Assembly: GCA_020850355.1 (NCBI GenBank)
Contig: JADZEX010000038.1
Location: 1-41,082, forward strand
Reading direction: 5' to 3'
From: Fimbriimonadaceae bacterium
Lineage (GTDB): Bacteria; Armatimonadota; UBA10988
DNA length: 41,082 nt
Below, piece after piece: positions 4,425 to 40,588 of the stretch. The notes below the pieces were generated by a model that saw nothing but the letters and a program-made list of their open reading frames with translations, ran no database searches and had not been told where the DNA came from. Position 1 is the first letter of the stretch; every line of letters starts with the position of its first letter. Both the position numbers and the translations under genes were made by a program.

Positions 4425-4490
4425 CCGCCGGTCCGCCGGCGCGGCCGGTCGACGGGAGGAGGCGGCCCGGCCGAGCGGAACCGGCGCACC

Positions 4491-6203
4491 ATGATCCACC
4501 TCTTGCCGGGAGTGCTGCTGATGCTCACCGCCGCGCCGCGCGACCTCGCGAGCGACACCTGGGCCGCCGTCGACGGGCTGGGCCGGCGCCTGCCCGACCA
4601 CGCCGCCGTGGGCGCGCCGCGACCGGACAAGACCGTCGGCATCTTCTACTTCACCTGGCTCGGCGAGCACACTCAGGGGGTCTACGACCTCTCCAAGATG
4701 CTCGCCGCGAACCCCACCGATCCCGCCTACGGCCCGCGCCACGCCTTCCACTTCTGGGGTGAGCCGCGCTTCGGCTACTACCGCAGCGACGACCCCTGGG
4801 TGCAGCGCAAGCACCTCCAACTGCTCGCCGACGCCGGCGTCGACGTGCTCTTTCTGGACGCCACCAACGCCTTCACCTACGATCACGTGGTGCGCAGCTT
4901 GTGTCAGCAGATGCGCGCCCTGGCCGCCACCGGCCGGCGGGTGCCACAGTTCGCCTTCCTGCTCAACAGCCGCCACCAGACCGTCGCGCCGAAGCTCTAT
5001 CAGGAGTGGTACCAGGCCGGCCTCTACCCGGAGTGCTGGTTCCGGTGGCAGGGCAAGCCCTTGCTGCTGAGCCCGTCGGAAGGCCTCAGCGACGAGCTGC
5101 GCGGCTTCTTCACGCTGCGCCAGTCGTGGGCCTGGACCAAGGGCGCGCAGTGGTTCGGCGATGGCCGCGACAAGTGGCCCTGGCTCGACCATCACCCCCA
5201 GGGCTACGGCTGGTCGGCCGCCCCGGACCGGCCCGAGATGGTCCCGGTGGCGATCGCGCAGCACCCCACCAGCAACATCGGCCGCAGCTTTCACGGCGGG
5301 CGGCAACCCGCCCCGGGCGACGTCCAGCCGGCCGTCGGGCTGTGCTTCGCCGAGCAATGGCAGCGCGCCCTGGCGGTCGATCCCGAGCTGATCTTCGTGA
5401 CCGGCTGGAACGAGTGGGTGGCCCAACGGTTCATCGTCGACGGCGAGCACGGCCCCGGGTTCCTGGGCCGCCGGACCAACCGCGGGGAGACCTTCTTCGT
5501 CGACCAGTACAACCAGGAGTTCAGCCGCGATGCCGAGCCGATGGTCGGGGGCCACGGCGATGCCTACTACTTCCAGTTGATCGACGGCATCCGCCGCTTC
5601 AAGGGCGTCCGCTCGGTGCCCCCGCTGAGCGCGCCGGTCAGCCTGAGGCCGGGCCAGGGCTTCGCTGGCTGGGCCGCCGTCGGACCCGACTACCTCGACG
5701 ACCTGGAGGACACCACCGTCCGCGACCACCCCGGCTTTCCGCCGCTCCCGAACTACGTCAACCGCAGCGGCCGCAACGATTTCGCCCTGGCCAAGGTCGC
5801 CCGCGACGCCCAGCAGGTCAGCTTCTACATCCGCTGCGCCGCGCCGATCAGCGCGCCGGGTCCGCACTGGATGACTCTGCTGCTGAACACCGCCGGCGAC
5901 CCGACCACCGGCTGGGAGGGTTACGACCTGATCGTCAACCGGCTGCCGCCCGAGAACGGCCGCGCCGTGGTCGAGCGCTGTACCGGCGGCTGGGCCTGGG
6001 AGCGCGTCACCACCGTGCCGCTGGAGGTCGCCGGCGCCGAGCTGCAGGTCGCCCTGCCCCGCGCGCTGTTCGGCCCCGGTCCGCTGCGCTGCTGGTTCAA
6101 ATGGGCCGACAACCTGCCGCCGGAGCCAACCGCCCTGGACTTCTTGGACCGCGGCGACTGCGCCCCGAACGCCCGCTTCGCCTACGTCGTGCGCGAGGAC
6201 TGA
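4491..6203 (+). CDS. Secreted GH99/WbsX-like (beta/alpha)8 protein with C-terminal carbohydrate-binding-like domain
   Basis: A 570-residue protein. The short hydrophobic start (IHLLPGVLLMLTAA) is a probable signal peptide. The body opens with GIFYFTWLGEH, followed by DVLFLDATNAF and the motif GWNEW at 305-309 (E308). GWNEW is characteristic of GH99-like and WbsX-like proteins, whose GH99 members are endo-mannosidases, so a retaining glycoside hydrolase is plausible but unproven. Residues about 400-570 look like a CBM9/DOMON-type sandwich (SFYIRCAAPIS, GWEGYDLIVNR). No strong ribosome-binding site precedes the ATG at 4491: GGGAGGAGG lies about 28 bases upstream. Translation may depend on the preceding gene, or may start at the internal ATG of MLTAAP. 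It ends 3 bp before the GNAT gene. Confidence 0.8.
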   Translation: MIHLLPGVLLMLTAAPRDLASDTWAAVDGLGRRLPDHAAVGAPRPDKTVGIFYFTWLGEHTQGVYDLSKMLAANPTDPAYGPRHAFHFWGEPRFGYYRSDDPWVQRKHLQLLADAGVDVLFLDATNAFTYDHVVRSLCQQMRALAATGRRVPQFAFLLNSRHQTVAPKLYQEWYQAGLYPECWFRWQGKPLLLSPSEGLSDELRGFFTLRQSWAWTKGAQWFGDGRDKWPWLDHHPQGYGWSAAPDRPEMVPVAIAQHPTSNIGRSFHGGRQPAPGDVQPAVGLCFAEQWQRALAVDPELIFVTGWNEWVAQRFIVDGEHGPGFLGRRTNRGETFFVDQYNQEFSRDAEPMVGGHGDAYYFQLIDGIRRFKGVRSVPPLSAPVSLRPGQGFAGWAAVGPDYLDDLEDTTVRDHPGFPPLPNYVNRSGRNDFALAKVARDAQQVSFYIRCAAPISAPGPHWMTLLLNTAGDPTTGWEGYDLIVNRLPPENGRAVVERCTGGWAWERVTTVPLEVAGAELQVALPRALFGPGPLRCWFKWADNLPPEPTALDFLDRGDCAPNARFAYVVRED

Positions 6204-18471: not shown

Positions 18472-19901
18472 CCGTCGCCCCGGCCGCGGCGGCGCGCCTG
18501 CGGCAGTTTGGCTACCCCTTCGCCGCGGCCTGGCTGGCAGGCGTGATCTTGCTGCTGCTGGCCCCGCGCTGGGAGTACCCGACTCGCAACCTGCCGGCCG
18601 AACTGCGCGCCTGGAGCCTCGGGCTGCCGCTGCTGCTGCTGGTGGTGACGTTCCACGTGCGGCGCCGGCAGCCGCAGATGGTGGTGGCGGCCCAACGCCT
18701 GGCGCTCGGCCTGGCCGTGCTGCGCCTGGCCGCGCTGCTGGTCTTCACCGCGGTCAGCGTGCGCCTGAACCCTGAGAACCTCGGCCACACCAGCGATGAC
18801 GGCCACATCGGCTCGCTGGTGGTGCGCTCGGTGCTGCTGTACACCGGGGGCGAGGACACCAGTTGGCAGTACAGCACCATCGTCTACGGCTACGGCCTGT
18901 TCCTGCTGCAGGGGCCCGCCGACGAGACTCCGCGGCCGAAGCCGGTCTGGCTCTGGATGCACGGCATCTTGTGTCGCCTGATTGGTTTCTCGGTGGTCGC
19001 GGTGGCCCTGCCGCTGGCGCTGGTCAACGTCTTCTTTGTGGTGCAGATCTGGCTGTTACTGCGCCCCTTGGTCCACCCGGCGACTCACTTCCTGGTGACA
19101 GCCTGGCTGATCATCTCGCCCGACCAGGCGCTGGTGGCGGCGGGGTTCCACAAGGACTTCGCGTCGGGGATCGGGCTGCTCTACGTTTTGGAGTATGCCA
19201 GCCGCGGCCGGGTGCCGCAGCCCCGCCTGCGGCTCTGGCAGGCGGCCCTGGTGGTGTTCTGGATGGGCGCCTTTCGAGCCGACACCTGGCCGCTGCCCAT
19301 TGGCCTTTTCGTCTGGCTCTGGCTGCTACCGCGGCTGCCTCCCGCCGCACTGCGCCCGGTCTCGGTCGTGGTCGTCCTGCTGGCCCTCGGCGCGGGCGCG
19401 GTGGTGGGTTCCGGGGCGATCGGCCAGACCGAAGCCGAAGCGATGTGGCGCACCAACTTCCTGGGCAACTTCGCCTTCAGCCTGCTGGCCAGTCCGCTGC
19501 TCTATGCCTCGGCCTTTGGGCTGCACCGCAACCCGTTCCTGTACACCATGTGCGACCTGCCGGTGTCGCTGTTCTGGCCGCTCGTGGCGGCCCTGCTGAT
19601 CGTGGCTGTGCTGCTGGCACCGCACCGCCGACCGGCGCTGGGAGCAGGGGCGGTGTGGGTGATCTTCGGCTGGCAGCTCGCCATCGCCAGCAGCGGCCTC
19701 GGCCTGCTGCACCGCTTCCGCCTGCCGCTCGACCCGCTGCTGCTCGCCTTTGCGCTCGAGACCGCCCGCCAGATCGGCCGCCTGCAGCCCGCCCGCCGGG
19801 CCTGGCTGCTGAGCTTCGCGGTCAGCGTCGCCACCGTCATCTACCTGGTTCAGATTGCCCCGCTGCTATTCAAGATCGCCGACTACCCAGTGCTCTCCTA
19901 A
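18468..19901 (+). CDS. Polytopic membrane protein, GT-C glycosyltransferase or polymerase-like
   Basis: A 477-residue protein with about ten hydrophobic helices. The first large outward loop carries an acidic pair (HTSDDGHIG), the position where GT-C glycosyltransferases keep their catalytic acidic motif. A conserved-looking DTSWQYSTIVYGYG segment follows. With the Wzz-like gene directly upstream (GTG start overlapping its TGA), it is likely the lipid-linked sugar transferase or Wzy-type polymerase of the same surface glycan. I could not match a named family. The GTG at 18468 has GAGGAG abutting it, too close for a normal ribosome-binding site, so re-initiation is likely. Its stop codon overlaps the stop of addA, which runs the other way. 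Confidence 0.7.
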   Translation: MTVAPAAAARLRQFGYPFAAAWLAGVILLLLAPRWEYPTRNLPAELRAWSLGLPLLLLVVTFHVRRRQPQMVVAAQRLALGLAVLRLAALLVFTAVSVRLNPENLGHTSDDGHIGSLVVRSVLLYTGGEDTSWQYSTIVYGYGLFLLQGPADETPRPKPVWLWMHGILCRLIGFSVVAVALPLALVNVFFVVQIWLLLRPLVHPATHFLVTAWLIISPDQALVAAGFHKDFASGIGLLYVLEYASRGRVPQPRLRLWQAALVVFWMGAFRADTWPLPIGLFVWLWLLPRLPPAALRPVSVVVVLLALGAGAVVGSGAIGQTEAEAMWRTNFLGNFAFSLLASPLLYASAFGLHRNPFLYTMCDLPVSLFWPLVAALLIVAVLLAPHRRPALGAGAVWVIFGWQLAIASSGLGLLHRFRLPLDPLLLAFALETARQIGRLQPARRAWLLSFAVSVATVIYLVQIAPLLFKIADYPVLS

Positions 19902-22900
19902 CCGTTCGGGTGCGCTTCACACTGCCGGTAGGCACACCGCGCGCAGCGGCCGGGGTCCGGCCGGGGATCGAACTGCTGCTGCTGGATCCCGGCGACCACC
20001 TCCGCCGCGACGGCGTCGAGGGCGTTGAGGCGAGCGGCATCGAGGGCCCACAGCGCCGGACCGCGGAGGTCGGCGACGTAAGCCCGCCCCCGGCCGCTGC
20101 CGCAGGCGTAGGCCCAGACCTGTAGCTCGTGCTCGGCGGCGCTGACCTCGGCGCCGGTCTTGTAGTCCACCACGTAGTCGGCCCCCAGGCGGTCGATCCG
20201 CCCCACGATGGCCAGTCCGTGCAGCACCAGGTGCAACGGCTCCTCGCGCTGGTCGCCCGGCTGGCGGACCGGCTCGAAGCAGTCGGCCGCGTGCCACGCC
20301 TGCACCAGCCGCGCGGCCTCGGCGATCGCCTCGGCGGCGAGGTGCGGCATCACTCGGCGGAGCGCCGCGGCGTCGTGGAGGTCGTGCTCCAGCGCTTCGT
20401 GGACCAGCAGCCCGACCTGCCGGGCCGGCGCGCCGTGGCCGCCGCTGTGGCCGGGGTGGCCGTCGACGATCTGGTACCGGAACTGCCGCGGGCAGCGGCG
20501 CCAGGTGTCCAGCGCCGAGGCCGGCACGTCGTGCAGGCACGGTCCGACCACGCCGGTCAGCAGCTCGGCGGTGGCCGGGCGGGTGAGCGGCGGGGGCGTC
20601 GGCAGGCCCGGCGGCACGGCCCGCGCGGGATCGGCGGGGATCGCGGTGACCGGCCAGCCGGCGGCGTCCCAGCCGGCCTTCAGCAACCGCAGCAAGCTAG
20701 GGCTGGCCAGTTCGCCGGGTCCGACCGCCTCCTGGTCGCTGGCCGCCGAGAGGATCAGCCGGTCGCCGGCCCGAGTGCAGGCGACGTACAGCAGCCGCCG
20801 CGCCTCGTCCTCGTCGCGCTGCCGCGCGGCCCGGTCGAGGGTCCGCCAGAGGTACGACGGCGCCTCGCCCGCGGCCGGCGCCAGCGCCACGCCGCGCTGC
20901 CGGTCGAGCCGCGCGACCGGCCGGCGCCCGCTCGGCTGGCGAGCCAGGTCAGGCACGAAGACGATCGGGAACTCCAAGCCCTTGGCGGCATGAATCGTCA
21001 GCAGGCTGACGGCGTCGGCGGCCTGGGTGACCGGCCGCTCGATCTCGATCTGCAGCTCGCGCAAGTGCCGCAACCGGCGGCAGACCGTGAAGACGGCCGG
21101 GCCGCTGCGCTGCAGGTCCAGCACCAGGCCCTCGAAGGCGCGCCAGTCGGCCAGCCGGCGGTCGCCCAGCGGCAGGTTCGCCAGCACGGCCGTGTAGCCG
21201 GTCCGCTGGTCGGCCAGTTGCAGCAGCTCCAGCGCGGTGCAGCGGCCAGCCGCCGCGTGCAGCTCGCCGAGCACCTCGCGCGGTCGCGCCAGTTCACCGT
21301 GCCAGTTGTCTCGCTCGGCCCACCAGTTTGGGTGGCCCGCCAGCGACTGCAGCGCGCGGTCGCTGACGGCGCACCAGGGCGACCGCAGCACCGCCGCCAG
21401 CGCCAGGTTGTCGTTGGAGTGCGCCAGGAAGCGGAGCAGCGCCTCGCCGTCGAGCGCCTCGCGGGTCGCCAGCAGACTGCCGCCACCGCCGTGGACCGCC
21501 GGAATGCCGCGCGCCGCGAGGGCCTCCTGGACGGTGTCCAGCACGCTCCAGGCGCGGCCCAGGATAGCGATGTCCCCGTAGCTCGCCGGCCGCGGCCCGC
21601 GGCGGTCGCTGACCAGGCAACTCGCCCCGACGAAGTCCGCGATGCGGTCGGCGATCCAGTTCGCCTCGACCCACCGCCGGGCCCGCAGGCTGGGCCCCGG
21701 CGCCGCCTGCTCCGGCGTCGCCGCCGACGGCGTGACGACCGCCAGCTCGCTGTACCGCGCGGCGTCGTGGGGTGGCGGCTGCTCGCTGCGGACCGCCGCA
21801 TGGAGCGCGCCGAGGATCGGGCCGAACAGCGTGTTCAGCTCGCCGGCCAGCGCGGTGTGCTGCCGCCAGGTCTGCTCGAGCACCACCGGCGGCCGGCCGA
21901 TCACCTCGCGCTGCAGCCGCGCGAACTCCTCGACAGCGGCGCCGCGGAAGCCGTAGATGCTCTGCTTGGCGTCGCCGACCAGGCCGATCGACGGCCTTGC
22001 GAACAGCGTGATCAGCGCCTCGATCAGCTCCGACTGCGTGCGGTTGACGTCCTGCGTCTCGTCGACCAGCAGCACGGTCCAGCGCGCGGCGTACCACTGC
22101 CGGACCGCCGGATCGCCCAACGCCCGCAACGCCCCGACTTCGAGCCCGGCGAAGTCCAGCGCGCCAGCCTGCTCCAGCCGCGCCGCCAGCTCGGGCGCCA
22201 CGGCCTCGTGAATCCGCGCCAGTTGCCGCGCGGCGCGCCACTGCCACTCGTCGGACGGGCCCAGCGTCAGCTCCGCCAGCGCGCCGAGCAGCCCCTTGCA
22301 GCGGTCTCGCAACGCCCACAGCGGGTCCCGTACCTCCGACTTGACGTCGCGCGGCGCCCAGGCCTTGGCCGCCCCGGGAGAACCTTTGCCGCAACCGGCG
22401 ATCGCCCGCAGGTGCTCCTCGACGTCGCCCCCCGCGGCGATCGCCGCGACTTGCTCCAGGGCGATCCCCAGCGCGACCGCCAGGCGGTCCTCAGGGTCGG
22501 ACGACCGGAGGGTCTGCAGGTAGGCGACCGCCGCCGTCCACGCCGAATCGCCGACGGCCCCGAGCAGCTCGGTCCGCTGGGCGGCCAGGGCGGCTTCCCA
22601 AGCGGCGGCGACCAGCTCCCAAGGCTGGTCGAGCAGCGGCAGCGCAGTCGCCGCCAGCAGCGGCTCGGCCAGCAGTTGGCGAACCGCCGCGCGGGCCGTC
22701 CCGAACGACAGCATAGCCGGATCGTAGAGCTCGGGCCCGAGGCCGACCAGCAGGTCGTCGAGGTGCTCCTGCTGGAACAGCCGGCTCTGCTGCGCATCCT
22801 GAATCGTGAACCCCGGCGCCACGGCGGCGGCGGCCGGGTGCTCCCGACAGATCCGCCCGCAGAGCGTGTGGAAGGTGCTGATCGGGGCCAGGTCGAGTTC

Positions 22901-23149
22901 CGCCAGCCGGCTGCTATCGCGCCCGGACTCCTCGCGGACGGCCTGCCGGATCCGCTCCCGCAGCTCGCCGGCCGCTTTGTCGGTGAAGGTCACCGCGACG
23001 ATCTGCAGGGGCGAGCGGCCGGCCCGCAGTTCGGCCAGGTAGCGCGCCGTGAGGGTGCCGGTCTTGCCCGTGCCGGCCGAGGCCACCACCGCACAACACT
23101 GCCCGGCAGCGGCCGCCTGCTGTTGTTGCGGATTGAGTTGCAGCGCCAT
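19898..23149 (-). CDS. addA: AddA-type helicase-nuclease (UvrD/Rep superfamily)
   Basis: A 1083-residue SF1A helicase fused to a PD-(D/E)XK nuclease. Visible motifs are ASAGTGKT (23-30), VTFTDKAAGELRERI (53-67), DETQD (363-367), GDAKQSIYGFRG (392-403), EQTWRQH, TIHAAKGLEFPIVFVPD, and LLYVACTRAGDRLIL. The nuclease core appears as GRIDRLGADYVVDYKTG followed by ELQVWAYA. Unusually for AddA, a cysteine before the nuclease (RRCPRQFRYQ) and C1069, C1072 and C1077 at the end form a typical 4Fe-4S nuclease set. With AddB it should resect double-strand breaks to load RecA. The ATG shares a base with the AddB stop (TGATG), so translation is coupled. It is the last gene of the operon. Confidence 0.9.
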   Translation of the reverse strand: MALQLNPQQQQAAAAGQCCAVVASAGTGKTGTLTARYLAELRAGRSPLQIVAVTFTDKAAGELRERIRQAVREESGRDSSRLAELDLAPISTFHTLCGRICREHPAAAAVAPGFTIQDAQQSRLFQQEHLDDLLVGLGPELYDPAMLSFGTARAAVRQLLAEPLLAATALPLLDQPWELVAAAWEAALAAQRTELLGAVGDSAWTAAVAYLQTLRSSDPEDRLAVALGIALEQVAAIAAGGDVEEHLRAIAGCGKGSPGAAKAWAPRDVKSEVRDPLWALRDRCKGLLGALAELTLGPSDEWQWRAARQLARIHEAVAPELAARLEQAGALDFAGLEVGALRALGDPAVRQWYAARWTVLLVDETQDVNRTQSELIEALITLFARPSIGLVGDAKQSIYGFRGAAVEEFARLQREVIGRPPVVLEQTWRQHTALAGELNTLFGPILGALHAAVRSEQPPPHDAARYSELAVVTPSAATPEQAAPGPSLRARRWVEANWIADRIADFVGASCLVSDRRGPRPASYGDIAILGRAWSVLDTVQEALAARGIPAVHGGGGSLLATREALDGEALLRFLAHSNDNLALAAVLRSPWCAVSDRALQSLAGHPNWWAERDNWHGELARPREVLGELHAAAGRCTALELLQLADQRTGYTAVLANLPLGDRRLADWRAFEGLVLDLQRSGPAVFTVCRRLRHLRELQIEIERPVTQAADAVSLLTIHAAKGLEFPIVFVPDLARQPSGRRPVARLDRQRGVALAPAAGEAPSYLWRTLDRAARQRDEDEARRLLYVACTRAGDRLILSAASDQEAVGPGELASPSLLRLLKAGWDAAGWPVTAIPADPARAVPPGLPTPPPLTRPATAELLTGVVGPCLHDVPASALDTWRRCPRQFRYQIVDGHPGHSGGHGAPARQVGLLVHEALEHDLHDAAALRRVMPHLAAEAIAEAARLVQAWHAADCFEPVRQPGDQREEPLHLVLHGLAIVGRIDRLGADYVVDYKTGAEVSAAEHELQVWAYACGSGRGRAYVADLRGPALWALDAARLNALDAVAAEVVAGIQQQQFDPRPDPGRCARCAYRQCEAHPNG

Positions 23150-25878
23150 CACCCCACCCCTTTGCGGGCCACGCGCGCCCCGACACGGCAGACCGCGGCG
23201 TAGTCGCAGGCGCGGCAGGCCGCCTCGTCGACGTCCGGCTGCACCGGCACCCGCCCGCTGGCCAGCCGCTCGGCGACGCTTGCCACGAACTCCGTCGCCA
23301 GCGCCAGCTTCTCGACCGCCTGTGGCTGCCCGCGGAGCAGCTTGCGGCCCCGCAGGAGCAGGTAGCCGACCTCCGCCGGCTCGCCGCGGGCCTGCTCGTA
23401 GAGCGCCGCGTAGAGGGGCAACTGGAGGTCCACGTTGAGCTTGCCGGCGGCGTCCTGGATCCCCGCCGGCCGGCTGCTGCCGCTCTTGTAGTCGAGCAGC
23501 CGCACCGCGCCGGTGGTCAGCCGGTCGGCCCGGTCGACGCGCCCGTGGACCCGCAGGCCGGCGGACTCCCCGGCCAGCCCGAACTCCACCTCGCAGGGCA
23601 CCGCGTCGGCGGGCAGGAAGTCCGGGCAGCGTACCGCCAGCTCCAGGGTCTGGAGCACCTCGCGCCGCAGAATCGGCCAGTGCGCCCAACTCGCGAAGCG
23701 CGCCTGGCGCTGCTCGTCGTCGTCGGCCGGTCCCGTCGCGGGCCGCTGCGCCCAGATCGCCGCCAGCTTCTGCCGCACCGCGCTGCCGTCAGCGGGTTCG
23801 CCCAGGCAGGCAGCCAGCGCCGGGTCGAGGTAGCTCAGCAGCCGCTCGCGGTCGGTCGGCTGACCATCGTCCAGGGCGGCCCGCACCGCCAGCTCCAGCA
23901 CGCCGTGGTAGAGCGTCCCCAGCAGCAGCGCGTCAGGATCGGCGGCGGTTTCGTCGGGCGGCGCCAGCCGCAGCGCGTGGCGGGCGAACCACTTGAACGG
24001 GCACTGCCCCAACGTAATCAGCGCCGAAACCGCCAGCGACCGGCCGGCCGGCCAGACCGGCTCGTCGAGCACGCCGTCCCAGGCGTCGGGCGCGGCGGGC
24101 GACTCCCGGCGGCACTCGACTGCCCAGGCACCCGCGGCGGCCTGCTCGACCGCCGTGACGGGCGCCCCCAACCGGTAGCGGCGGTCCTCGGCCGGCGGCA
24201 GCAGCAGCGCGGGCGGACCGCTCGGCAGGCCCAGCAAATCGAGGTACGAGCTGACCATGGTGGGCGCGCGGTCTACCACCAGCGGCTGGTAGAACAGCAG
24301 TTGCCGCTGCGCCGCCTGCAACAGCATCCAGAAGCTGAGCCGCTCGCGTTGCGACTGCGCGGCGGCCGTTTCGAGCGGGTAGCCCAACGCGCTGACCGCC
24401 GCCCGCTCGACGGTGTCGAGGCAGGGATCCTCGCTGAGCGGCGGCGGCAGCAGCCCAGCCGCGGCTCCGAGCACCAGCAGGTGATCGCAGCGGCTGCCGA
24501 AGAGCGCCAGCGGCGTGTGCAGCGGCACGCCGCCGCGGCCGACGTCGAGCGCCACGGTGGTCGCGCGGAGCAGGTCGTTGACCTGCTCCACGAACTGCGC
24601 CGCGGTCAGCTCACGGCCCGGATCGGCGAGCAGGCGCAGCCCCTCGCGGAAGCGCTCGTGGGCGTGCAGCTCGCGGGGCCAGGCGACCAGCCGCTGGGGC
24701 AGCTCCGAGGCGGCCAGCAGCCCCTCCAGCCAGGCCAGCCAGGCCGGCAGCCCGCGCGGGGCACGGTCGGCCAGGCAGCCCAGCAGCGGCTGCCCCGGCA
24801 GAAGCTGTTGCCAGGCCGCCACGCCGTGCGCCCGGCGGTGCTGGGCAGTGGCGCGGGGCTCGTCGTCCAGGCCGCCGGCCAACGGGTCGGCGAAGGTCGC
24901 CAGCGCCAGTTCGTAGGGCGCGTCGTCCACCAGCAGCGCCAGCAGCCGCAGCAGGTAGCTGCCGAAGTGAGTCTCAGCCAGCGGCCCCTGCCCCTGCGGC
25001 CGGACGGGCAGCCCGTACTCGGCGGCAACCTTCTGCACCAGCGGCGCGTAGCGCTCCTCGTCGCGCGCGACGACGGTGATCTGAGAGGCCGCGACGCCGT
25101 CCAGCAAGAGCCGCTGCACCTCGGCCAGGGCCGCCCGGACTTCGTCCTCGGGGGAGGCGCAGAGGTTCCGCCGAACCCCCTCGACGGTCGCCGGCTGCTG
25201 CGCCACGAAGCAGGCGGCGAGCCGCTCGCCGACGGTCGCGGCGGCCGGCGTTGGGGCCTCGGCGATCGCCCAGCCGCGGGCGGCGAACCACTCGGCGGTG
25301 GCGCGATTCTCGGCGAACAGCGGCTCCGGGCCGCCAGGCAGCACGACCACGCTGCCGGCGCCAGCGGCCGCCAGCAAGAAGGCCCGGTCGTCGGCGTCGA
25401 GGCGGGCGTAGCCGGCCACCAGCAGCGCGTCCGGCGCGCCGACCCGGCCGGCGGCGCGGTGCAGCAGCTCTGCCGCGGCGACCAGACCCCGCTCCGCCAG
25501 CCGCTCGCGGTACCCCAGGCCGACCGCGGCGAGGTCCCGGACGCGCGGCGAGCCGACTTGCCGCAACTGCTCCAGATCGGCCCCCGCGCGCAGCAGGCGG
25601 GCCAGCGCACCGCCCAGCACCTGCGCCTGCCGCGCCGCGTGGCGCGGACCAAGCACCGCCGCCACGGCCGCCGTCAGCGCCTCGTTGGCGACCACCTCCG
25701 GCGCGACCTGCCAGTCTGGCCGCAGCCAGCGCGTCGCCAGCTCGACCAAACTCCGCGCCAGCGGCTGCCCGAAAGCCTCGCCCGCCCGGCGGTTCGGCGC
25801 CACCACCGCCCGCTCCGGCGACCGCAGCGCCCGCGCCACCACCCCCGGCGCGCCGCTCAGCACCACCTGCTGCACCAT
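23149..25878 (-). CDS. addB: AddB-type nuclease subunit with Fe-S cluster
   Basis: A 909-residue partner of AddA. The N-terminal helicase-like part has a degenerate P-loop (SGAPGVVARA) and a VVAPNRRAGEAF segment, as in AddB subunits that do not hydrolyse ATP. A C-terminal PD-(D/E)XK nuclease domain shows RVDRADRL..GAVRLLDYKSG and DLQLPLYAALY. The Fe-S ligands are the cysteine of LGQCPFKWFARHAL and C888, C891 and C897. AddAB processes broken DNA ends, pausing at a recognition sequence. The ATG at 25878 follows GGGAGTGGAGC. A longer open frame runs upstream, but into a region overlapping the MFS gene. It lies 56 bp after the MFS stop and overlaps addA by one base. Confidence 0.88.
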   Translation of the reverse strand: MVQQVVLSGAPGVVARALRSPERAVVAPNRRAGEAFGQPLARSLVELATRWLRPDWQVAPEVVANEALTAAVAAVLGPRHAARQAQVLGGALARLLRAGADLEQLRQVGSPRVRDLAAVGLGYRERLAERGLVAAAELLHRAAGRVGAPDALLVAGYARLDADDRAFLLAAAGAGSVVVLPGGPEPLFAENRATAEWFAARGWAIAEAPTPAAATVGERLAACFVAQQPATVEGVRRNLCASPEDEVRAALAEVQRLLLDGVAASQITVVARDEERYAPLVQKVAAEYGLPVRPQGQGPLAETHFGSYLLRLLALLVDDAPYELALATFADPLAGGLDDEPRATAQHRRAHGVAAWQQLLPGQPLLGCLADRAPRGLPAWLAWLEGLLAASELPQRLVAWPRELHAHERFREGLRLLADPGRELTAAQFVEQVNDLLRATTVALDVGRGGVPLHTPLALFGSRCDHLLVLGAAAGLLPPPLSEDPCLDTVERAAVSALGYPLETAAAQSQRERLSFWMLLQAAQRQLLFYQPLVVDRAPTMVSSYLDLLGLPSGPPALLLPPAEDRRYRLGAPVTAVEQAAAGAWAVECRRESPAAPDAWDGVLDEPVWPAGRSLAVSALITLGQCPFKWFARHALRLAPPDETAADPDALLLGTLYHGVLELAVRAALDDGQPTDRERLLSYLDPALAACLGEPADGSAVRQKLAAIWAQRPATGPADDDEQRQARFASWAHWPILRREVLQTLELAVRCPDFLPADAVPCEVEFGLAGESAGLRVHGRVDRADRLTTGAVRLLDYKSGSSRPAGIQDAAGKLNVDLQLPLYAALYEQARGEPAEVGYLLLRGRKLLRGQPQAVEKLALATEFVASVAERLASGRVPVQPDVDEAACRACDYAAVCRVGARVARKGVG

Positions 25879-25934: not shown

Positions 25935-27140
25935 TCAGCCCGCCGAGCTTGGTTCCTCGTCGCCGGCCGCGCGGGTGCGCGCTGGCGGTGGCAGGGCGCG
26001 GGTGACCAGCAGGGCGGCGGCGGTGGCCAGCAGCGCGCTGTAGACGAAAGGCGCGGGGCCGCCGACGTGTTCGGCCAGTTGCCCGCCGACGATGCTGGCC
26101 AACAGCAGGCCGACGCCCTCGACGGCGTGGAAGACGCCCATCCCGAGGCCGCGCCGGTTGGCCGCCAGCAGCCCGGCCACGGTGGCTCGCGAGCAGCCGC
26201 CGACGGCGCCCATCTGGAGGCCATAGACCGCGAACCAGAGCCATAACAGCGCCGGCTGGCTGGTCGCCGCGAAACCCAAGCAGGTCAGCGCCTGCAACAG
26301 GTAGGCGGTGACCTGGGCCCGCCGCGGCCCGAGGCGGTCAAGCAGCGCGCCGGCCGGGAAGCTGACCGCGGCATAGACGACGTTGTGCCACAGATAGAGC
26401 AACGGCACAACCGCCGCGGCGACGCCGCAACCCTCGGCGCGGAGCAGGAAGAAGGCGTAGCTGAAGTTGCCGGCCGAGTAGACCCCGTGCGCCACCAGGA
26501 ACAGCCGCAAGTTGCCGGCCAGCGGCGCCCGTGGCCGCTTGCCGCTGGCCGCACGTGGCGGCGGGTCGCGCACCAGGCCGGCCAGCAGCGCCACCGCGAC
26601 GACGCCAGCGAGGGTCGCCGCGAGGAACACCCGCCGGTAGTCGCCGCCGCTCCACCGCAGCAGCAGCACCGCCGCCAGCGTGCCCAGCACGGCGCCGCTG
26701 GTGTCCATCGCGCGGTGGAACCCGAAGGCCCGTCCAAGCTGCGCCGGGTCGACCGAATCGGCCACCAGCGCGTCGCGCGCCGCCGAGCGCACGCCCTTGC
26801 CGAAACGGTCGGCCAGCCGCACCGCAAGCACCTGCCAGCCCGCCGTGGCGAGACTCAGCAACGGCTTCGCGGCCGTCGACAGCGCATAGCCCAACAGCAC
26901 CACTGGCTGCCGGCGGCGGACCCGGTCCGACCACCAGCCCGAGACGATCTTGAGCAGACTCGCGGTACACTCGGCGAGCCCCTCGATCAGCCCAATCGCT
27001 GCCGGCCGCAGGCCCAGCACATGCGTCATGAACTGCGGCAGCAGCGCCAGGATCGTCTCGCTGTGGAGATCGGTGAAGAAACTCACCAGCCCCAGCGTGA
27101 CCACATTCCGCGACCGCCAGGAACCCCCGCTGGCGCTCAT
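25935..27140 (-). CDS. Major facilitator superfamily transporter
   Basis: A 401-residue, 12-helix MFS protein. The N-terminal helix carries the FFTDLHSETILALLPQF signature, and the 2-3 loop reads GWWSDRVRRRQP, the motif A type sequence (G-x-x-x-D-R-x-x-R). The second half begins near residue 210 (RAPLAGNLRLFLVAHGVYS). It would move a small solute with proton coupling across the cytoplasmic membrane; the substrate cannot be read from the sequence, but drug/proton antiport and sugar efflux are both possible. Its ATG overlaps the stop of the kinase gene (ATGA), so the two are translated together. It precedes addB in the same transcript. Confidence 0.88.
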   Translation of the reverse strand: MSASGGSWRSRNVVTLGLVSFFTDLHSETILALLPQFMTHVLGLRPAAIGLIEGLAECTASLLKIVSGWWSDRVRRRQPVVLLGYALSTAAKPLLSLATAGWQVLAVRLADRFGKGVRSAARDALVADSVDPAQLGRAFGFHRAMDTSGAVLGTLAAVLLLRWSGGDYRRVFLAATLAGVVAVALLAGLVRDPPPRAASGKRPRAPLAGNLRLFLVAHGVYSAGNFSYAFFLLRAEGCGVAAAVVPLLYLWHNVVYAAVSFPAGALLDRLGPRRAQVTAYLLQALTCLGFAATSQPALLWLWFAVYGLQMGAVGGCSRATVAGLLAANRRGLGMGVFHAVEGVGLLLASIVGGQLAEHVGGPAPFVYSALLATAAALLVTRALPPPARTRAAGDEEPSSAG

Positions 27141-27823
27141 CCCGCTGCTCCGGCACCGCGGTCGGGCGGCAGACCCTTGCCGATCCGGGCCTCGGCGCCG
27201 GCGGCGGTGGCGGCGATCAGGACGGCGTTGAGGCCGTCGTTGCTGGCGATCCGGTCGAGGGCCTGCTGCCGGGTGAAGCCCCAGGCGGCGATGTGGCGCG
27301 CGGCGAGGCGCTCCAGGGCGAGCTCCAGTGGGGTGTCGAGGTACCAGCGATGGTCGAACGCCGCGCGCACCGGCGCCCAGCCCTCCTGCTCGTAGAGCAG
27401 GTAGTTGCCCTCAACGAGCACGACCCGCGCGGTCGGGGGTACGGTCACCGCGTCGGCCACCGGATCGCCGACCTCGTGGGCGAACGCCGGCCAGCCGACC
27501 GGCCCGCGCTGGAACCCGTCCCGCACCGCCTGCAGCCGCGCGGCCAGCGCCGTCGCGTCGAAAGTGAACGGCGCCCCTCGGCGGGCGAAGGCGTGGTCCG
27601 GGTCGGGCAGCGCGGCGAGCACGGCTCGCGGGTGGTGGAAGCCGTCCATCCCCAGGGCGATCAGCGCGGGCTCGCCCGCCGCGGCGTTGACGGCGGCCGC
27701 GAGCTGCTGCGCCACGGTGGTCTTGCCGGCCCCCGGCACGCCCGCCAGGGCCACCAGCGTCCGCCGCGGCTGACTCGCCAGCGCGTGCAACACGGCGACC
27801 GGATCCACCAGCAGGGGTGGCAT
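27137..27823 (-). CDS. Uridine-kinase-like nucleoside/nucleotide kinase (P-loop)
   Basis: A 228-residue P-loop kinase of the phosphoribulokinase/uridine kinase/CoaA fold. It has Walker A GVPGAGKTT near residues 29-37, the substrate-loop motif MDGFHHPR, RGAPFTFDA and the Walker B-like strand VVLVEGNYLLYE. This set matches the small nucleoside/nucleotide kinase group represented by PRK09270 and yeast YFH7. It phosphorylates a small metabolite, probably a nucleoside, sugar or cofactor precursor. I chose the ATG at 27823, seven bases after GAGAGGAG. The longer frame to 28000 runs through parS and the methyltransferase. The start lies 26 bp from the parS site, and the stop overlaps the MFS start. 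Confidence 0.85.
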   Translation of the reverse strand: MPPLLVDPVAVLHALASQPRRTLVALAGVPGAGKTTVAQQLAAAVNAAAGEPALIALGMDGFHHPRAVLAALPDPDHAFARRGAPFTFDATALAARLQAVRDGFQRGPVGWPAFAHEVGDPVADAVTVPPTARVVLVEGNYLLYEQEGWAPVRAAFDHRWYLDTPLELALERLAARHIAAWGFTRQQALDRIASNDGLNAVLIAATAAGAEARIGKGLPPDRGAGAAG

Positions 27824-27848: not shown

Positions 27849-27864
27849 TGTTTCACGTGAAACA
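27849..27864. promoter_or_regulatory. parS: parS centromere site (perfect 16-mer)
   Basis: TGTTTCACGTGAAACA, a perfect palindrome identical to the canonical bacterial parS bound by ParB. It covers the TGA stop of the methyltransferase part of the fusion gene (27853-27855) and lies just upstream of the kinase gene, so ParB binding here could also affect that operon. Chromosomal parS sites normally cluster near oriC. No parA or parB gene is in this window. Confidence 0.93.
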
Positions 27865-29700
27865 GCGGCCGCACGCCGCCGGTCGCTGGGCGACGGCCAG
27901 GAAGATGCCAAACTCGCGCGTCCCACCGCTCGGGGTCGGCCGCCGGATCACGCTGGCGTCGGCCACCCCGACCGCGGTGCAGCCGGCGGCAGTCAGCCAC
28001 TGCGCCACCGCGGCGCGGTCGAAACCGAGGTGGTACACGTCGCTGGCCTCGGGGCCGTGGAAGCTGCCGTCCTCGCGATCCAGATCGGCCACGGCGATCC
28101 AGCCGCCGGGCCGCAGCGCGGCGACCAGGCGGCCGAGCACCAGCGGCACGTCGCGCAGGTGGTGCAGGGTCATCGCACTGACCACCAGATCGACCGGCCC
28201 GCCGGGCCAGGGGCCTTCGTGGAGGTCGGCCTGCACCGCCTCGACCCCGCTCAGGTCAGCCGCGGCGACCTTCTGCCGCAGCACCTCCAACATGTCGGCC
28301 GAGGTGTCGACCGCCTGCACCTGTCCGACGTGCGGCCGCAGCGCCAGCCCCAGCAGGCCGGTGCCGGCGCCGTAGTCGAGCGCCTGCCAGGCCGGCTGCA
28401 GCGGCACCCGCGCGGCGATCGCCGCGGCAATCGCCTGGGCATTGGCGACTCGCGCCGGGTTGTCGTCCCATTGCGAGGCTAGCTGATCGAAGCGACTGGT
28501 GGCCATCGGAGGCTCCTCGCGGGGGGACCGTTCGGGCGTTGGCACCAGCAGGCCCGGCGCCAGGTGGAGCGCCGCGCGCAGCCCGGCGGGGCCCCACAGA
28601 TCGTGGTAGGCTAGCAGGTTGGCGGCCTGTGAGGCGTGCGCCCAGAGCCAGCCAGCAGCCAGCGCCAGGGCGGCGGCCAGCCCGGCCTGCAGCAGCCGTC
28701 CGAGGTCGGGCGGTGGTCCACTGAGCAACGCGTACGGCGCGCCCAGCGCCAGTAGCAGCGCCAGCAACGGCGGCACCGTCGCCAGCAGCCACCAGAGCAG
28801 CCAGCCGAGTGGCCCGCCGGCGGTGCGCCGCCAGCTCTCGTCGGCCGCCGGCCAGAGCTCGCGGCCGTCCAGCAGCAGCAGCCAGCGGACGTAGACCAGC
28901 CGGGGTGCCAGCAGCAGCAGTGGTGAACTGAGCAGCAGGCTCCAGACCGTCAGCCGCCCCCGCGCCGGGGCCAGCAGGCTCTGCCCCAGCGCCAGCAGCC
29001 CAGCCTCCAGCTCGCCGGTGACGACCTGCCGTAACCGGACCAGCAGGCGCCCGGCGAGGTAGCGCGGCAGCCCGTAAGCCAGCCAGCCGCCGGCCGCCGC
29101 GGCGGTGATCCAGCCGCCCACGCCCTGCCCGCGCTGGACGCCCAGCAGGCCCAGCCCTAACAGCAGCGGGACCAGCAGCAGCACCGCCGCCAGGCCGTCG
29201 AGGAAGACCCAGGCCGCCAGGTCGCGCCCGGCCCAGCGCCAGCCGGCCCGTCGCCAGGTCGCCCAGGCCGGGCCCGCTGGCGCTGCCGCCGGCTCCTCCG
29301 GCGCGGGGTCCAGCGCCTCCAGCGCGCGGGCCAGCTCGACGTGCACGGTCGCCGCCGCCACCTCGCGCCGGGCGACGTGCAGCGCCGCCAGGACGGTGTG
29401 CACCAGCGCCAGCTCCGGCGCCAGCGCCAGCGCCGCCCGCGCCCGGCTGAGGGCAGCCGCCAAATCGCCGGCTGACTGCTGCGCGCTGGCCTCGCTCAGC
29501 AACGCCGTCGCCGCCGCCCAGCGGGCCGGTTGCTGGGCGCCTGGTTCGGCCAGCCGCCGCGCCAGCCCGCTCACCAGCGGATCGCCCGGATGGGCTGCCA
29601 GCCATTGCTCGCAGAGCGCGGCGGCCCGCGCAGAGTCCTGTCGGGCCGCCGCGACCGCCGCTGCGAACAGCTCGGGGAGGGTTGTTGGCAGGCTGCTCAC
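27853..29700 (-). CDS. Fusion of TPR-containing membrane protein and class I SAM methyltransferase
   Basis: One uninterrupted frame of 615 codons. Residues about 1-135 are Ala-rich helical repeats of TPR type (AAALCEQWLAAHPGDPLV; LALAPELALVHTVLAAL). Residues about 155-380 hold five or six membrane segments. Residues 399-615 are a complete class I methyltransferase with motif I ALDYGAGTGLLGLAL at about 440, AVDTSADML and VDLVVSAMTLHHLRDVP, resembling the UbiE/Methyltransf_11 type. The GTG at 29700 overlaps the rep stop (GTGA). The methyltransferase has its own ATG at 28506, six bases after GAGGAG, and could be made separately as a 217-residue protein. No stop separates the two parts, so this is a real fusion, a lost stop, or a sequencing error. 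The methyl acceptor is unknown. Confidence 0.75.
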   Translation of the reverse strand: MSSLPTTLPELFAAAVAAARQDSARAAALCEQWLAAHPGDPLVSGLARRLAEPGAQQPARWAAATALLSEASAQQSAGDLAAALSRARAALALAPELALVHTVLAALHVARREVAAATVHVELARALEALDPAPEEPAAAPAGPAWATWRRAGWRWAGRDLAAWVFLDGLAAVLLLVPLLLGLGLLGVQRGQGVGGWITAAAAGGWLAYGLPRYLAGRLLVRLRQVVTGELEAGLLALGQSLLAPARGRLTVWSLLLSSPLLLLAPRLVYVRWLLLLDGRELWPAADESWRRTAGGPLGWLLWWLLATVPPLLALLLALGAPYALLSGPPPDLGRLLQAGLAAALALAAGWLWAHASQAANLLAYHDLWGPAGLRAALHLAPGLLVPTPERSPREEPPMATSRFDQLASQWDDNPARVANAQAIAAAIAARVPLQPAWQALDYGAGTGLLGLALRPHVGQVQAVDTSADMLEVLRQKVAAADLSGVEAVQADLHEGPWPGGPVDLVVSAMTLHHLRDVPLVLGRLVAALRPGGWIAVADLDREDGSFHGPEASDVYHLGFDRAAVAQWLTAAGCTAVGVADASVIRRPTPSGGTREFGIFLAVAQRPAACGRCFT

Positions 29701-30977
29701 GGCGCCGGCAGAGCCTTCCGCGGCGCCACCCCGTTGCCGCCCAGATCGCCCGGCTGCAGGTTGTTGGTGAGCATGAAGCGCACCACCGCGCGCATCTCCT
29801 GACTCCACCCGGTGGGGTCCGGACGCCCATCGAAGAGCGTCCCGCTGCCGCCCACCAGCTTCAGCGCCGCAGCGTGATAGACCGCCTGGTCGACCGCCGG
29901 GAAGAGCTCCCAGATCGCCAGGAACTGCTCCCGGTCGTCGGGTCCGTAGGTCAGGTCCCAGTTGTTGCGGATCGCCTCCACCAGGAACCCGCCCTGCTTC
30001 TCGGGCCGCCCGCGCAGCCCGTGGCGGAGGCAGTCGCACTGCGCCATGATCACCGCCTCGTCGTAGGCCGAGACCAGTTCGCCGGCGGTCCGCGGGTAGA
30101 CGTCCAGTTCGACCAGCACGCGGCGCAGTTGAACCCGCAGGTAGTTGCGCAGGTGGTAGACGAAGACGCCGCCCCGCTGGTACTCCACCTGGTCGATCAC
30201 GCCGTGTTCGATCAGCCGCTGGTGGTGCGGGTCGAGGAGTTGCCGGAAGCGCGCTGGCCGGGCGTAGTTGGCGGTCGAGCCAACCATTGCCGCCAGTTGC
30301 TTCCAGCCCACTTCCCAGCGCGTCTCACCGTTCAGCAGCAGGCGGTCCAGGAGCCGGTAGAGATGCCCGGTGATCGGGTCGCCCAGGGCGTTCAGGAGGT
30401 CCCAGTCGAGCGACTTCAGATCGCCCAGCCGGATCGCATCCATCACCAGGTCGCCCCACTTCACGAGACACCGCCCGCCGGCGCGGGCGTCGCTGATGTC
30501 GTAGGTGTCGATCAGGTGGGAGCCGTGGGTCCGCCGCCCGTACTCTTGTCCGGTGCGTGAGACCAGGGCAGTCCGCAGCACGATCCGGACGGCGTGCAGC
30601 CGGTCCAGGCTGGCCTCCAGATTCTTGTAGCTCCGCCCGTGCCGCGGCCACTCCAGCAAGTCGAACAGGTCGACCCGGTCGAAGACCAGTTCGCGACGCG
30701 GTTCCTCCTCCCGCAGACTGAGCTGCAGCAACGCCAGGTAGGTCTTGTGGTCGCCCGCGTAGGGCAACGCCTTGCCGTCCTCGGTGTGCAGTTCCAACGC
30801 CAACCGCCGCTGCACCCCGCCGATCCGCAGGGTTTCGTCGATCCGGAGCGTACTCTCCCGCTCGCCGGGTTTGTGCAGCGCCATGGTGAACGGAATCAGC
30901 GCCAACGAGGCATGGTCGTAAGCTCGTGCAATCGCCGCCATCGGATGCTGTTCCTGGTGGCTCTCGATCACGCTCAT
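29697..30977 (-). CDS. Replication initiator protein A (RPA family)
   Basis: A 426-residue DNA-replication initiator of the RPA type found on plasmids of many bacteria. Diagnostic stretches are ALIPFTMAL (about 26-34), LPYAGDHKTYLALLQLS (71-87), FDLLEWP (105-111) and YKNLEASLDRLHAVRI (117-132). These correspond to the domain in which related initiators bind origin DNA. I chose the ATG at 30977 (MSVIESHQ), eight bases after GAGGAC. The ATG at 31013 lies inside the likely -10 (TACAAT, 31012-31017) and has no ribosome-binding site. The stop overlaps the GTG of the fusion gene. The upstream 0.4 kb holds GANTC clusters and repeats that could be its binding sites. No parAB or other plasmid backbone gene is adjacent, so it may act on the main replicon, on a chromid, or be a relic. 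Confidence 0.85.
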   Translation of the reverse strand: MSVIESHQEQHPMAAIARAYDHASLALIPFTMALHKPGERESTLRIDETLRIGGVQRRLALELHTEDGKALPYAGDHKTYLALLQLSLREEEPRRELVFDRVDLFDLLEWPRHGRSYKNLEASLDRLHAVRIVLRTALVSRTGQEYGRRTHGSHLIDTYDISDARAGGRCLVKWGDLVMDAIRLGDLKSLDWDLLNALGDPITGHLYRLLDRLLLNGETRWEVGWKQLAAMVGSTANYARPARFRQLLDPHHQRLIEHGVIDQVEYQRGGVFVYHLRNYLRVQLRRVLVELDVYPRTAGELVSAYDEAVIMAQCDCLRHGLRGRPEKQGGFLVEAIRNNWDLTYGPDDREQFLAIWELFPAVDQAVYHAAALKLVGGSGTLFDGRPDPTGWSQEMRAVVRFMLTNNLQPGDLGGNGVAPRKALPAP

Positions 30978-30995
30978 CGGGTCTGTCCTCGCTGC

Positions 30996-31036
30996 GAGTC
31001 TTTCTGACTCCATTGTATGAGAGTCAACTCAGACTC
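30996..31036. promoter_or_regulatory. rep promoter with four GANTC sites
   Basis: Minus-strand TACAAT at 31012-31017 is a plausible -10 for rep, with TAGTGA at 31035-31040 as a weak -35 (17-bp spacing). GAGTC or GACTC occurs at 30996, 31006, 31021 and 31032, forming two inverted pairs about 25 bp apart that surround the -10 and start point. GANTC is the CcrM methylation target in Alphaproteobacteria. Here the pairs could equally be an operator for Rep autoregulation. Confidence 0.5.
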
Positions 31037-38323: not shown

Positions 38324-40549
38324 TCAGTCGGCGGCTCCGGTGCGGGTGCGCAGGTTCGGCAGGTCGAGCTCCCAGACCGCCTCGGCCGGCAGCAGCCCCC
38401 GGCGGTAGGCTTCGCCGAGGTAGAGCCAGGTTCCTTGCGGGCCGGGCGGCAACGGCAGGCGGGCGGTGCCACAGGTGACCTGCTGGCCATCGTACTGCAG
38501 CGTCAGGTCGAACGCCGGGCCGACCGCGCCGAGCGGGCTACTGGCCTCACCCGCGGTCAGTTGCAGACGGCCGTCGAGGTGCTCCAGCCGCACCGCCCGA
38601 TCGGCGTCGCCGACCGTCAACAGGACATGCCGCGAGCCGCTGACCAGCCGCCCGCGGAGCTGCACCGCCAGGGGCAGGCCCGGATCGCTCTCGACGCCCG
38701 CCGAGGCTTCGCCGGCGAAGGTCACTCGCGGCCCGGCGACCCGGAGCCCACCGGCGGCCTGCTCGGCAGGCAGCTCCCAGTCCCGCGCCAGCGCCGCGGC
38801 GTCGGCCGGGTCGAGGACCAGCCGCGCGTCGGCCGGGGGCTGCCCGGCGGCCAGCGCGGCGTGCTCGGCGGGGGTCAGCAGGCGGTCGAACCAGTAAAGC
38901 CGCCGCACCCGGCCGTGCAGCCCGGACAGCGCCGAGCTGCTCAGCCGCTTGTGCCCGACCGCCGGGGCGCCACCGCCGAAACCGACCGTCGGCGGGCCGA
39001 TCCGCTGGCGGTCGGCCTGCTGGCCGACCCGGAACTCCGCCCAGCCGCCGGCGGCGTCCGCGCTGAGGGCCAGGTAACCGCCGTCGGGCGGCAACTGCAG
39101 CGCGCTGAACAGATTGCCCTCCGGCGTCCGCAAATGCGCGAAGGGCTTGCCGCCCGAGAGCACCAGCACCACCCCCGCGACAGCGTTCTCGGGCCGGTTG
39201 TCAAACACCACGCCCTCTCGCGCCTGCAGCAGCGCGGCCACCGTGAACTGGCCCTGGCAGGTCGCCGGCGCGCGGCCCGCCACGCGCTGCTCACCACCGA
39301 AGGTCAGCCCGCCGGCGGCGAACTGCGGCCGCGGGCTGGGCGGCAGGTTGCTGCGGGGCCAGAGGTACCAGCGGTCGGGGCGCGGCAGCGGGCTGATGCT
39401 GGCGACCTTGATGCTGCGGTACTGGTTGCCCTGCGAGTAACTTACCAACAGGCGGTCGCCGGCGATCCAGCCTTGGGGATAGGCGACCACCGGCTCGTCG
39501 CCGCTGAAGCCCGGCCCGGCGCTGAACGGTGGGCCGTCGCCACGGGCGAAGAACAGCGCCAGGTTGCGCCGGTCGCGCACGAACTGCGCCGCCGGCCAGT
39601 CGTTGTGCAGCAGCAGGTGGCGTCCACCCGCCAGCGGCAGGACCTGCATCCGGGACGACACCGTCTCGAGCGGCACCGGCTGGTGCGGCGTCCAGGTCGC
39701 CCCGCCGTCGGCGCTGCTGCTCAGCAGGAGCATCTGGCTCGGCCGCGGACCGCCCTGGGCGACCGTCCGCGGGTCGTTGTTGCGGGCCAGCATCAGCACC
39801 CGGCCGTCGGCCGCCTCCCAGACCGTGGGCTCCCACTGCGCCCAACTCCGCCCAGTCTGCCAGGCGCCCGGCGAGCAGCGCCAGGTCGCCCCGCGGTCGT
39901 CGCTGTAGAGCACGCTGTTGCGCTTCGGCTGGGCCCACCAGGAGTCGATCCCGGCCGGTGCATCGGCCGCCCGGCCGCCACGCTGGCTGATCGTCACCGG
40001 CGCCAGGACCCGCCCCGAGCGCAGCCGGACCGGGTTCTGGGTGGCAAAGATGCTCCACGGCGCGCCGTCCAACTGCGGGTCGGGCTGGCCGTCAAAGAGC
40101 AGCCGCTGGCAGCGCCACTGGCCGTCGGGGCGGTCCAGCCGGGCCAGGTAGGTGCCGGCCAGCGCGTCGCCGCTGAACTGCGTCCAAACCGCCCACAGCT
40201 CGCCCTCGACGACCAGCAGATTCGGCTGCCACTGCGTCCCGCGCGGGCACGGCACCGGCGTGGCGCAGGCCGCCGGGTCGCTGAAGCAGGCCACCGGCGT
40301 GCTCCAGCTCAGGCCGTCGCGGCTGGTCGCCTGATAGTTGAGCTGCCCCGGCCGCCCCTCCTCGGGCACGCTGTTGGCATTCCACAGACAGAACCAGCGG
40401 TCGCCGAACCAGGCCACCGCCGAGTCGTGGTTGTACTTCAGCCCCTGCGCGTCGCAGTCGTTGACATAGGCCCGCGCGATCGTCGGCTGATAGACCTCAT
40501 ACCCGCGCCACGGCCCGAGCAGCACCAGCGCCAGCAGCGGCAGGCTCAT
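38324..40549 (-). CDS. Exported sialidase-like BNR propeller protein with LamG-like domain
   Basis: A 741-residue protein with a short signal sequence (MSLPLLALVLLGPWRG). The N-terminal half (about 30-390) is a sialidase/BNR propeller with Asp-box motifs SRDGLSWS, SDDRGATW and SADGGATW, plus a catalytic-like NPVRLRSGRVLAPV region. The C-terminal half (about 400-741) contains LamG/concanavalin-like segments (QFTVAALLQAREGVVFDN; RVRRLYWFDRLLTPAEHAAL). Members cleave or bind sialic acid or related sugars, but the full Arg triad could not be verified by eye, so it may be a non-sialidase exo-glycosidase or binding protein. The ATG at 40549 lies 24 bp beyond the parS-like site at 40573-40588, so ParB bound there would overlap its promoter. 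Confidence 0.8.
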   Translation of the reverse strand: MSLPLLALVLLGPWRGYEVYQPTIARAYVNDCDAQGLKYNHDSAVAWFGDRWFCLWNANSVPEEGRPGQLNYQATSRDGLSWSTPVACFSDPAACATPVPCPRGTQWQPNLLVVEGELWAVWTQFSGDALAGTYLARLDRPDGQWRCQRLLFDGQPDPQLDGAPWSIFATQNPVRLRSGRVLAPVTISQRGGRAADAPAGIDSWWAQPKRNSVLYSDDRGATWRCSPGAWQTGRSWAQWEPTVWEAADGRVLMLARNNDPRTVAQGGPRPSQMLLLSSSADGGATWTPHQPVPLETVSSRMQVLPLAGGRHLLLHNDWPAAQFVRDRRNLALFFARGDGPPFSAGPGFSGDEPVVAYPQGWIAGDRLLVSYSQGNQYRSIKVASISPLPRPDRWYLWPRSNLPPSPRPQFAAGGLTFGGEQRVAGRAPATCQGQFTVAALLQAREGVVFDNRPENAVAGVVLVLSGGKPFAHLRTPEGNLFSALQLPPDGGYLALSADAAGGWAEFRVGQQADRQRIGPPTVGFGGGAPAVGHKRLSSSALSGLHGRVRRLYWFDRLLTPAEHAALAAGQPPADARLVLDPADAAALARDWELPAEQAAGGLRVAGPRVTFAGEASAGVESDPGLPLAVQLRGRLVSGSRHVLLTVGDADRAVRLEHLDGRLQLTAGEASSPLGAVGPAFDLTLQYDGQQVTCGTARLPLPPGPQGTWLYLGEAYRRGLLPAEAVWELDLPNLRTRTGAAD

Positions 40550-40572: not shown

Positions 40573-40588
40573 TGTTTCACGTGAAACC
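40573..40588. promoter_or_regulatory. parS: parS-like site (15 of 16)
   Basis: TGTTTCACGTGAAACC, differing from the canonical parS only in the last base, with the central palindrome GTTTCACGTGAAAC intact. It is 24 bp upstream of the sialidase-like gene and 12.7 kb from the perfect site. Confidence 0.85.

Follow-up and report, generated by a model that had tools for sequence, protein, structure and literature searches.

A greatly expanded set of predicted parS sites concentrated on the dnaA and parAB contigs of a Fimbriimonadaceae genome

Background

Reviews put the usual number of chromosomal parS sites at 1 to 20-23, and why this number varies and why the sites are few and close together is a stated open question (PMC7333895). 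Closed Streptomyces chromosomes carry a mean of 22.8 parS (range 11-65, from position-matrix predictions), about 45% of which lie in an origin island of ~50 kb, ~5.6 kb apart (PMC8743542). In B. subtilis, eight parS are spread over ~0.75 Mb; the presence of more than one strong site at a distance is believed to lead to Smc collisions, and wide scatter of parS has been called counterproductive for collision avoidance (PMC8357415). ParB forms a CTP-bound clamp that loads at parS and spreads over about 15 kb (PMC9242446). Two recognition residues, R173 and G201, are absolutely conserved in ParB orthologs and are Q and R in Noc (PMC7383237).

The genome described here shares features with each of these systems. 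Like Streptomyces, it has many canonical parS around oriC and a single chromosomal ParB, ParA and Smc, but Streptomyces has 11-65 sites, whereas here ~160 were predicted across several hundred kb, mostly in tandem clusters whose members lie 25-60 bp apart. As in the ParB/Spo0J-parS system of Bacillus subtilis, parS are scattered over a wide origin region; in B. subtilis, however, these are eight single sites without tandem clusters. The Noc-NBS system, built on a ParB paralogue, also has many dispersed palindromes, including some away from oriC, but the Noc palindrome differs, and the ParB found here has the parS-type Arg/Gly and scores below the Noc cutoff. No report of more than 65 parS per genome was found in the literature, which was covered partially, and an earlier report is possible. 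By pattern counts, the present set would be the largest found, the maximum otherwise being the 65 predicted in a Streptomyces strain.

parS sites in the window and in the whole genome

The window (the whole stretch of 41,082 nt that was analysed, contig C39) comes from a 6.67-Mb genome in 117 contigs that is 95% complete with 2.07% estimated contamination. The first-pass annotation had claimed one perfect and one near-perfect parS here, and both were found: an exact match to the palindrome TGTTTCACGTGAAACA at 27849..27864 and a copy with one mismatch, TGTTTCACGTGAAACC, at 40573..40588 (both without strand assignment), at a spacing of 12,724 bp. Scanning all 41,082 nt with up to 3 mismatches yielded no further parS, and 100 dinucleotide shuffles of the window yielded 0, in agreement with the claim that chance occurrence is negligible. 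The two sites are in all likelihood parS.

As had been described, the perfect site covers a stop codon, the TGA (27853-27855, minus strand) of a gene whose product carries a class I methyltransferase domain at its C-terminus (27853..29574, minus strand; Methyltransf_25, E 2e-17). The same site precedes by 25 bp the probable ATG (27823) of the gene that follows downstream, which encodes a P-loop kinase-like protein of the PRK/uridine kinase family (27137..27823, minus strand; PF00485, E 4.9e-7). The second site, correctly placed upstream of a sialidase-like gene, is 23 bp from the ATG (40549, minus strand) of the gene encoding a BNR_2 protein (38324..40549, minus strand; PF13088, E 1.9e-16).

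Several other features of the window were recorded. Directly upstream of the methyltransferase gene, positions 29697-31013 (minus strand) encode a product with similarity to replication initiator protein A (PF10134, E 1e-10), which is unusual for a chromosomal stretch. Adjoining UvrD-helicase/PD-(D/E)XK and PD-(D/E)XK nuclease genes at 19898-25878 (minus strand) form an AddAB-like pair. Six copies of a REP-like repeat of 32 bp (CCCTTCGAGACGGCCTGCGGCCTCCTCAGGAC) are present, at 109, 6803, 7112, 7319, 40720 and 41051; one copy, near the left end, is inverted, and the repeat stands at both ends of the contig in inverted orientation. Eleven copies were counted in the ~1.1 Mb of the genome examined, window included.

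The whole-genome mismatch search that the first-pass annotation had proposed gave 159 parS at ≤1 mismatch and 168 at ≤2 mismatches, with 0 matches for the reversed pattern as a control. The 14-mer core of these sites is that of canonical parS, and the core GTTTCACGTGAAAC is nearly invariant, every position being ≥98% one base. The outermost bases are variable (T 82%, A 89%), and C (70%) and G (74%) are preferred immediately outside the site. The sites are thus the chromosomal 16-bp palindrome or close variants of it, but their number is far from the usual figure of about 1-24 per chromosome: at ~160 predicted sites, the genome would stand several times above any bacterium that we found reported.

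The ParB, ParA and Smc proteins

Exactly one protein in the genome, of 299 aa, passes the ParB family model. It is chromosomal and encoded beside ParA, and a profile search found the ParB_N, HTH_ParB and ParB_C domains, i.e., the N-terminal CTPase, HTH and C-terminal domains of a chromosomal ParB. It contains the motifs GERRWRA and ENLQREN. In the alignment, the residues equivalent to Caulobacter 173, 179, 184 and 201 are R, T, K and G, so both Arg173 and Gly201 of parS-type recognition are present. Neither the Q, K, K and R residues of Noc nor the NBS palindrome were found, and the protein scored 235.6 bits against the Noc model, below the 315-bit cutoff. The parS-type identity proposed by the first-pass annotation is consistent with this single ParB, its recognition residues and its position next to ParA. 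The closest ParB is that of the same-family genome G001 (54% identity); a wider scan with the protein gave matches in distant phyla only, and the assembly contains no 16S gene. Additionally, Smc is encoded on contig C19 (TIGR02168, 903 bits).

Distribution of parS over the contigs

The sequence examined, ~1.1 Mb of the 6.67 Mb, comprised contigs C96, C46, C22 and C41 in full, C19 almost in full and parts of others, and gene boundaries were taken from a simple purpose-written gene caller. Contig C46 begins with dnaA (648-1901), followed by dnaN (2216-3340). Contig C96 starts with yidC, jag (named from its sequence and not by a family search), parA (4022-4828) and parB (4828-5727). The two contig starts correspond to the two sides expected around oriC. 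In stretch L006, the interval 3861-4002, immediately upstream of parA and ahead of the probable start of that gene, contains three copies of parS; on translation these copies appear as FHVKQ/VSRET extensions, and parA starts in relatives may be misannotated.

Contigs C96, C46 and C22 together hold 126 of the 168 sites in 476 kb, or 7.1% of the genome. Counted per 20 kb, the sites number 11, 13, 6, 4, 6, 5, 13, 0 and 2 along C96 and 11, 9, 12, 4 and 6 along C46, and they drop from 6 to 0-2 along C22. parS density was greatest on the dnaA and parAB contigs, in line with the concentration near oriC invoked by the first-pass annotation. C22 was put near the origin by site density only, and contig order is fixed only for the starts of C46 and C96, which flank the dnaA/parAB region. 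The right end of C22 carries a CRISPR-like array of at least four 37-bp repeats (GTCGACAAGGCAGCAGCGCCTACTCAGGCGTGGAAAC) that runs into the contig end.

Outside the three dense contigs, about 40 sites are scattered, those of the window included; more than 10 other contigs, among them that of the window, have one or a few sites each, usually single. Concentration near oriC/dnaA therefore applies to C46 and C96 and was not established for the window's contig. The suggestion that the window is probably origin-proximal was not confirmed: both of its sites stand alone, as do those on the sparse contigs, whereas the origin contigs carry tandem clusters every few kb. The window alone was rejected as an origin marker, as single sites occur on many other contigs too; it is an ordinary outlying stretch of the expanded parS set. 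The first-pass annotation had named two observations that would speak against its reading. One, a genome without ParB, does not apply, parA-parB being located at the start of C96. The other, a large number of scattered sites without relation to an origin, holds in part: the sites are very many, but ~75% lie on three contigs that make up 7% of the genome.

With 117 contigs and an estimated contamination of 2.07%, the dense contigs might belong to another organism and have been brought in by assembly or binning. We consider such an artefact extremely unlikely. The single strong dnaA and the single parB that the genome has sit on these contigs, whose G+C content (0.714-0.716) is the same as that of the others; the ParB is closest to that of a same-family genome; and single sites also occur on many other contigs.

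Arrangement of parS clusters relative to genes

In the stretches examined, the sites formed 61 clusters, comprising 16 singles, 19 pairs, 18 triples and 8 groups of four to six. The spacing inside clusters has its mode at 55 bp (52-60 bp), and two other groups of spacings lie at 24-25 and ~45 bp. Helical phasing of the spacings was weak (best period 10.3 bp, p 0.04 versus jitter), too weak a signal to be claimed. The median gap between clusters was 5.9 kb on C96, 4.5 kb on C46 and 11.7 kb on C22, and clusters on the dense contigs come one every ~4-12 kb.

The sites were wholly intergenic in 136 of 144 cases, versus ~92% coding sequence (binomial p 1e-137). Convergent gaps were enriched (18 of 58 clusters versus 8.5 expected by length, p 0.001) and divergent gaps were depleted (11 of 58 versus 20.8, p 0.006). 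In co-directional gaps, the median distance of clusters was 18 bp from the stop of the preceding gene and 61 bp from the start of the following one, and 21 of 29 were nearer to the stop than to the start. The perfect site of the window, on a stop codon, follows this placement just after stops, and the site at 40573 has no obvious fit to it.

These positions bear on the idea that the palindromes serve as operators for a large regulon under a transcription factor or ParB-related regulator, only the copies near parAB being a true centromere. Both window sites precede a likely start codon by 23-25 bp and some clusters occupy divergent gaps, as operators might. However, an operator set should prefer promoter regions, and such a preference was not found, because convergent gaps are enriched, divergent gaps are depleted and stops are nearer than starts. 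Moreover, the 14-mer core is nearly invariant and equal to canonical parS, the one ParB-family protein passing the family model is below the Noc cutoff, and density is greatest on the dnaA and parAB contigs. We regard an operator function of most copies as highly improbable. The placement avoids promoters and fits structural loading sites rather than operators. A gene-regulatory role for the sites is not supported: the first-pass annotation had raised an influence of ParB on the neighbouring genes, but genome-wide the sites shun divergent promoter regions and prefer convergent gaps and the proximity of stops.

Multiplication of the parS copies

The repeated structure of some clusters raises the question of whether a selfish or MITE-like element carrying parS has spread the sites, most copies having no segregation role. 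Tandem units of 59-60 bp, which are internal duplications, were found inside some clusters; the clusters at 76.7 kb and 89.4 kb of C46 have a 92-bp flank in common (92%); and C46 and C59 both terminate on the right, at a break in the assembly, with an identical ~130-bp array. All three could be traces of a mobile repeat, but once the sites were masked, nearly all of the 61 clusters had no flank in common with other clusters. The copies also gather around the origin and directly behind stop codons. Additionally, mutated copies are few, so that the sites are under selection or very young. A selfish repeat is thus a very unlikely source of the set. The copies may instead have multiplied by local tandem duplication and rare or occasional copying of arrays, followed by selection on the site, as the flank comparisons suggest.

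parS expansions in the phylum

The 290 other genomes of the phylum were surveyed with the 16-mer, the 14-mer core and degenerate core patterns. At ≤1 mismatch, the canonical 16-mer was found at most 16 times in any of the 290. The 16-mer was rejected as the only yardstick, and the survey was redone with the 14-mer and the degenerate core, because the 16-mer undercounts genomes that use the variants CGTTTCACGTGAAACG or TGTTGCACGTGAAACA; genome G098, for example, has 14 sites by the 16-mer and 89 by the core. With the 14-mer core, the present genome had 156 sites, G098 had 89 and the next had 13, and the degenerate core GTTNCACGTGNAAC gave 161, 90 and 14, respectively. Under all three patterns, each genome apart from these two stayed within 0-16. 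Other genomes of the same family as the present one have 1-2 sites, some of them using TGTTGCACGTGAAACA beside parB.

G098 resembles the present genome in having ~90 parS cores in tandem clusters, some beside parB and nearly all intergenic (58 of 59 sites). Unlike it, G098 is a 3.7-Mb genome of a different family (f9), whose other members have 0-3 sites, and its sites are mostly CGTTTCACGTGAAACG, spaced 58 and 72-80 bp apart. Two independent parS expansions in the phylum are probably the simplest reading, based on kinship labels rather than a tree. On several G098 contigs (C29, C37, C56, C82, C89 and C100), parS arrays were also seen no more than a few hundred bases from a contig end, which suggests that assembly stops at the arrays and that G098 has more parS than were counted.

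A proposed regional parS centromere

It is very likely, in our judgment, that the genome has an ordinary ParABS-Smc system with a hugely amplified, regional parS centromere, of which the window sites are outlying members. One ParB, together with ParA and Smc, would act at ~160 parS copies, rather than the usual 1-20, and ParB would bind all of them. The copies would form clusters of mostly 2-6 sites, ~25, 45 or 55 bp apart and repeated every 4-12 kb, within a domain that reaches out from dnaA/parAB in both directions over several hundred kb and thinning to isolated singles elsewhere. From every cluster, loaded ParB-CTP clamps would spread across the gaps. Because the clusters come every 4-12 kb, with gaps mostly shorter than the ~15 kb of spreading, neighbouring ParB zones should merge into one near-continuous and very large domain around oriC. 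Such a centromere would be regional and not point-like, moved by ParA and loading Smc at many places. The continuity of the ParB domain and its role in segregation and Smc loading are thus the expected, rather than observed, properties of this arrangement. Counting against it, the wide spread of parS conflicts with the idea that tight clustering avoids Smc collisions (PMC8357415).

We give about even chances to the fuller proposal that a regional centromere, in which ~160 parS in dispersed tandem clusters give an almost unbroken ParB domain several hundred kb long around oriC, arose two or more times in the phylum and provides dozens of Smc loading places without the collision damage predicted from B. 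subtilis. This genome and the second, apparently independent case would offer an extreme test of ParB spreading, condensate size, Smc flux and centromere evolution, and the genome itself may serve as a natural test of why bacteria limit centromere number.
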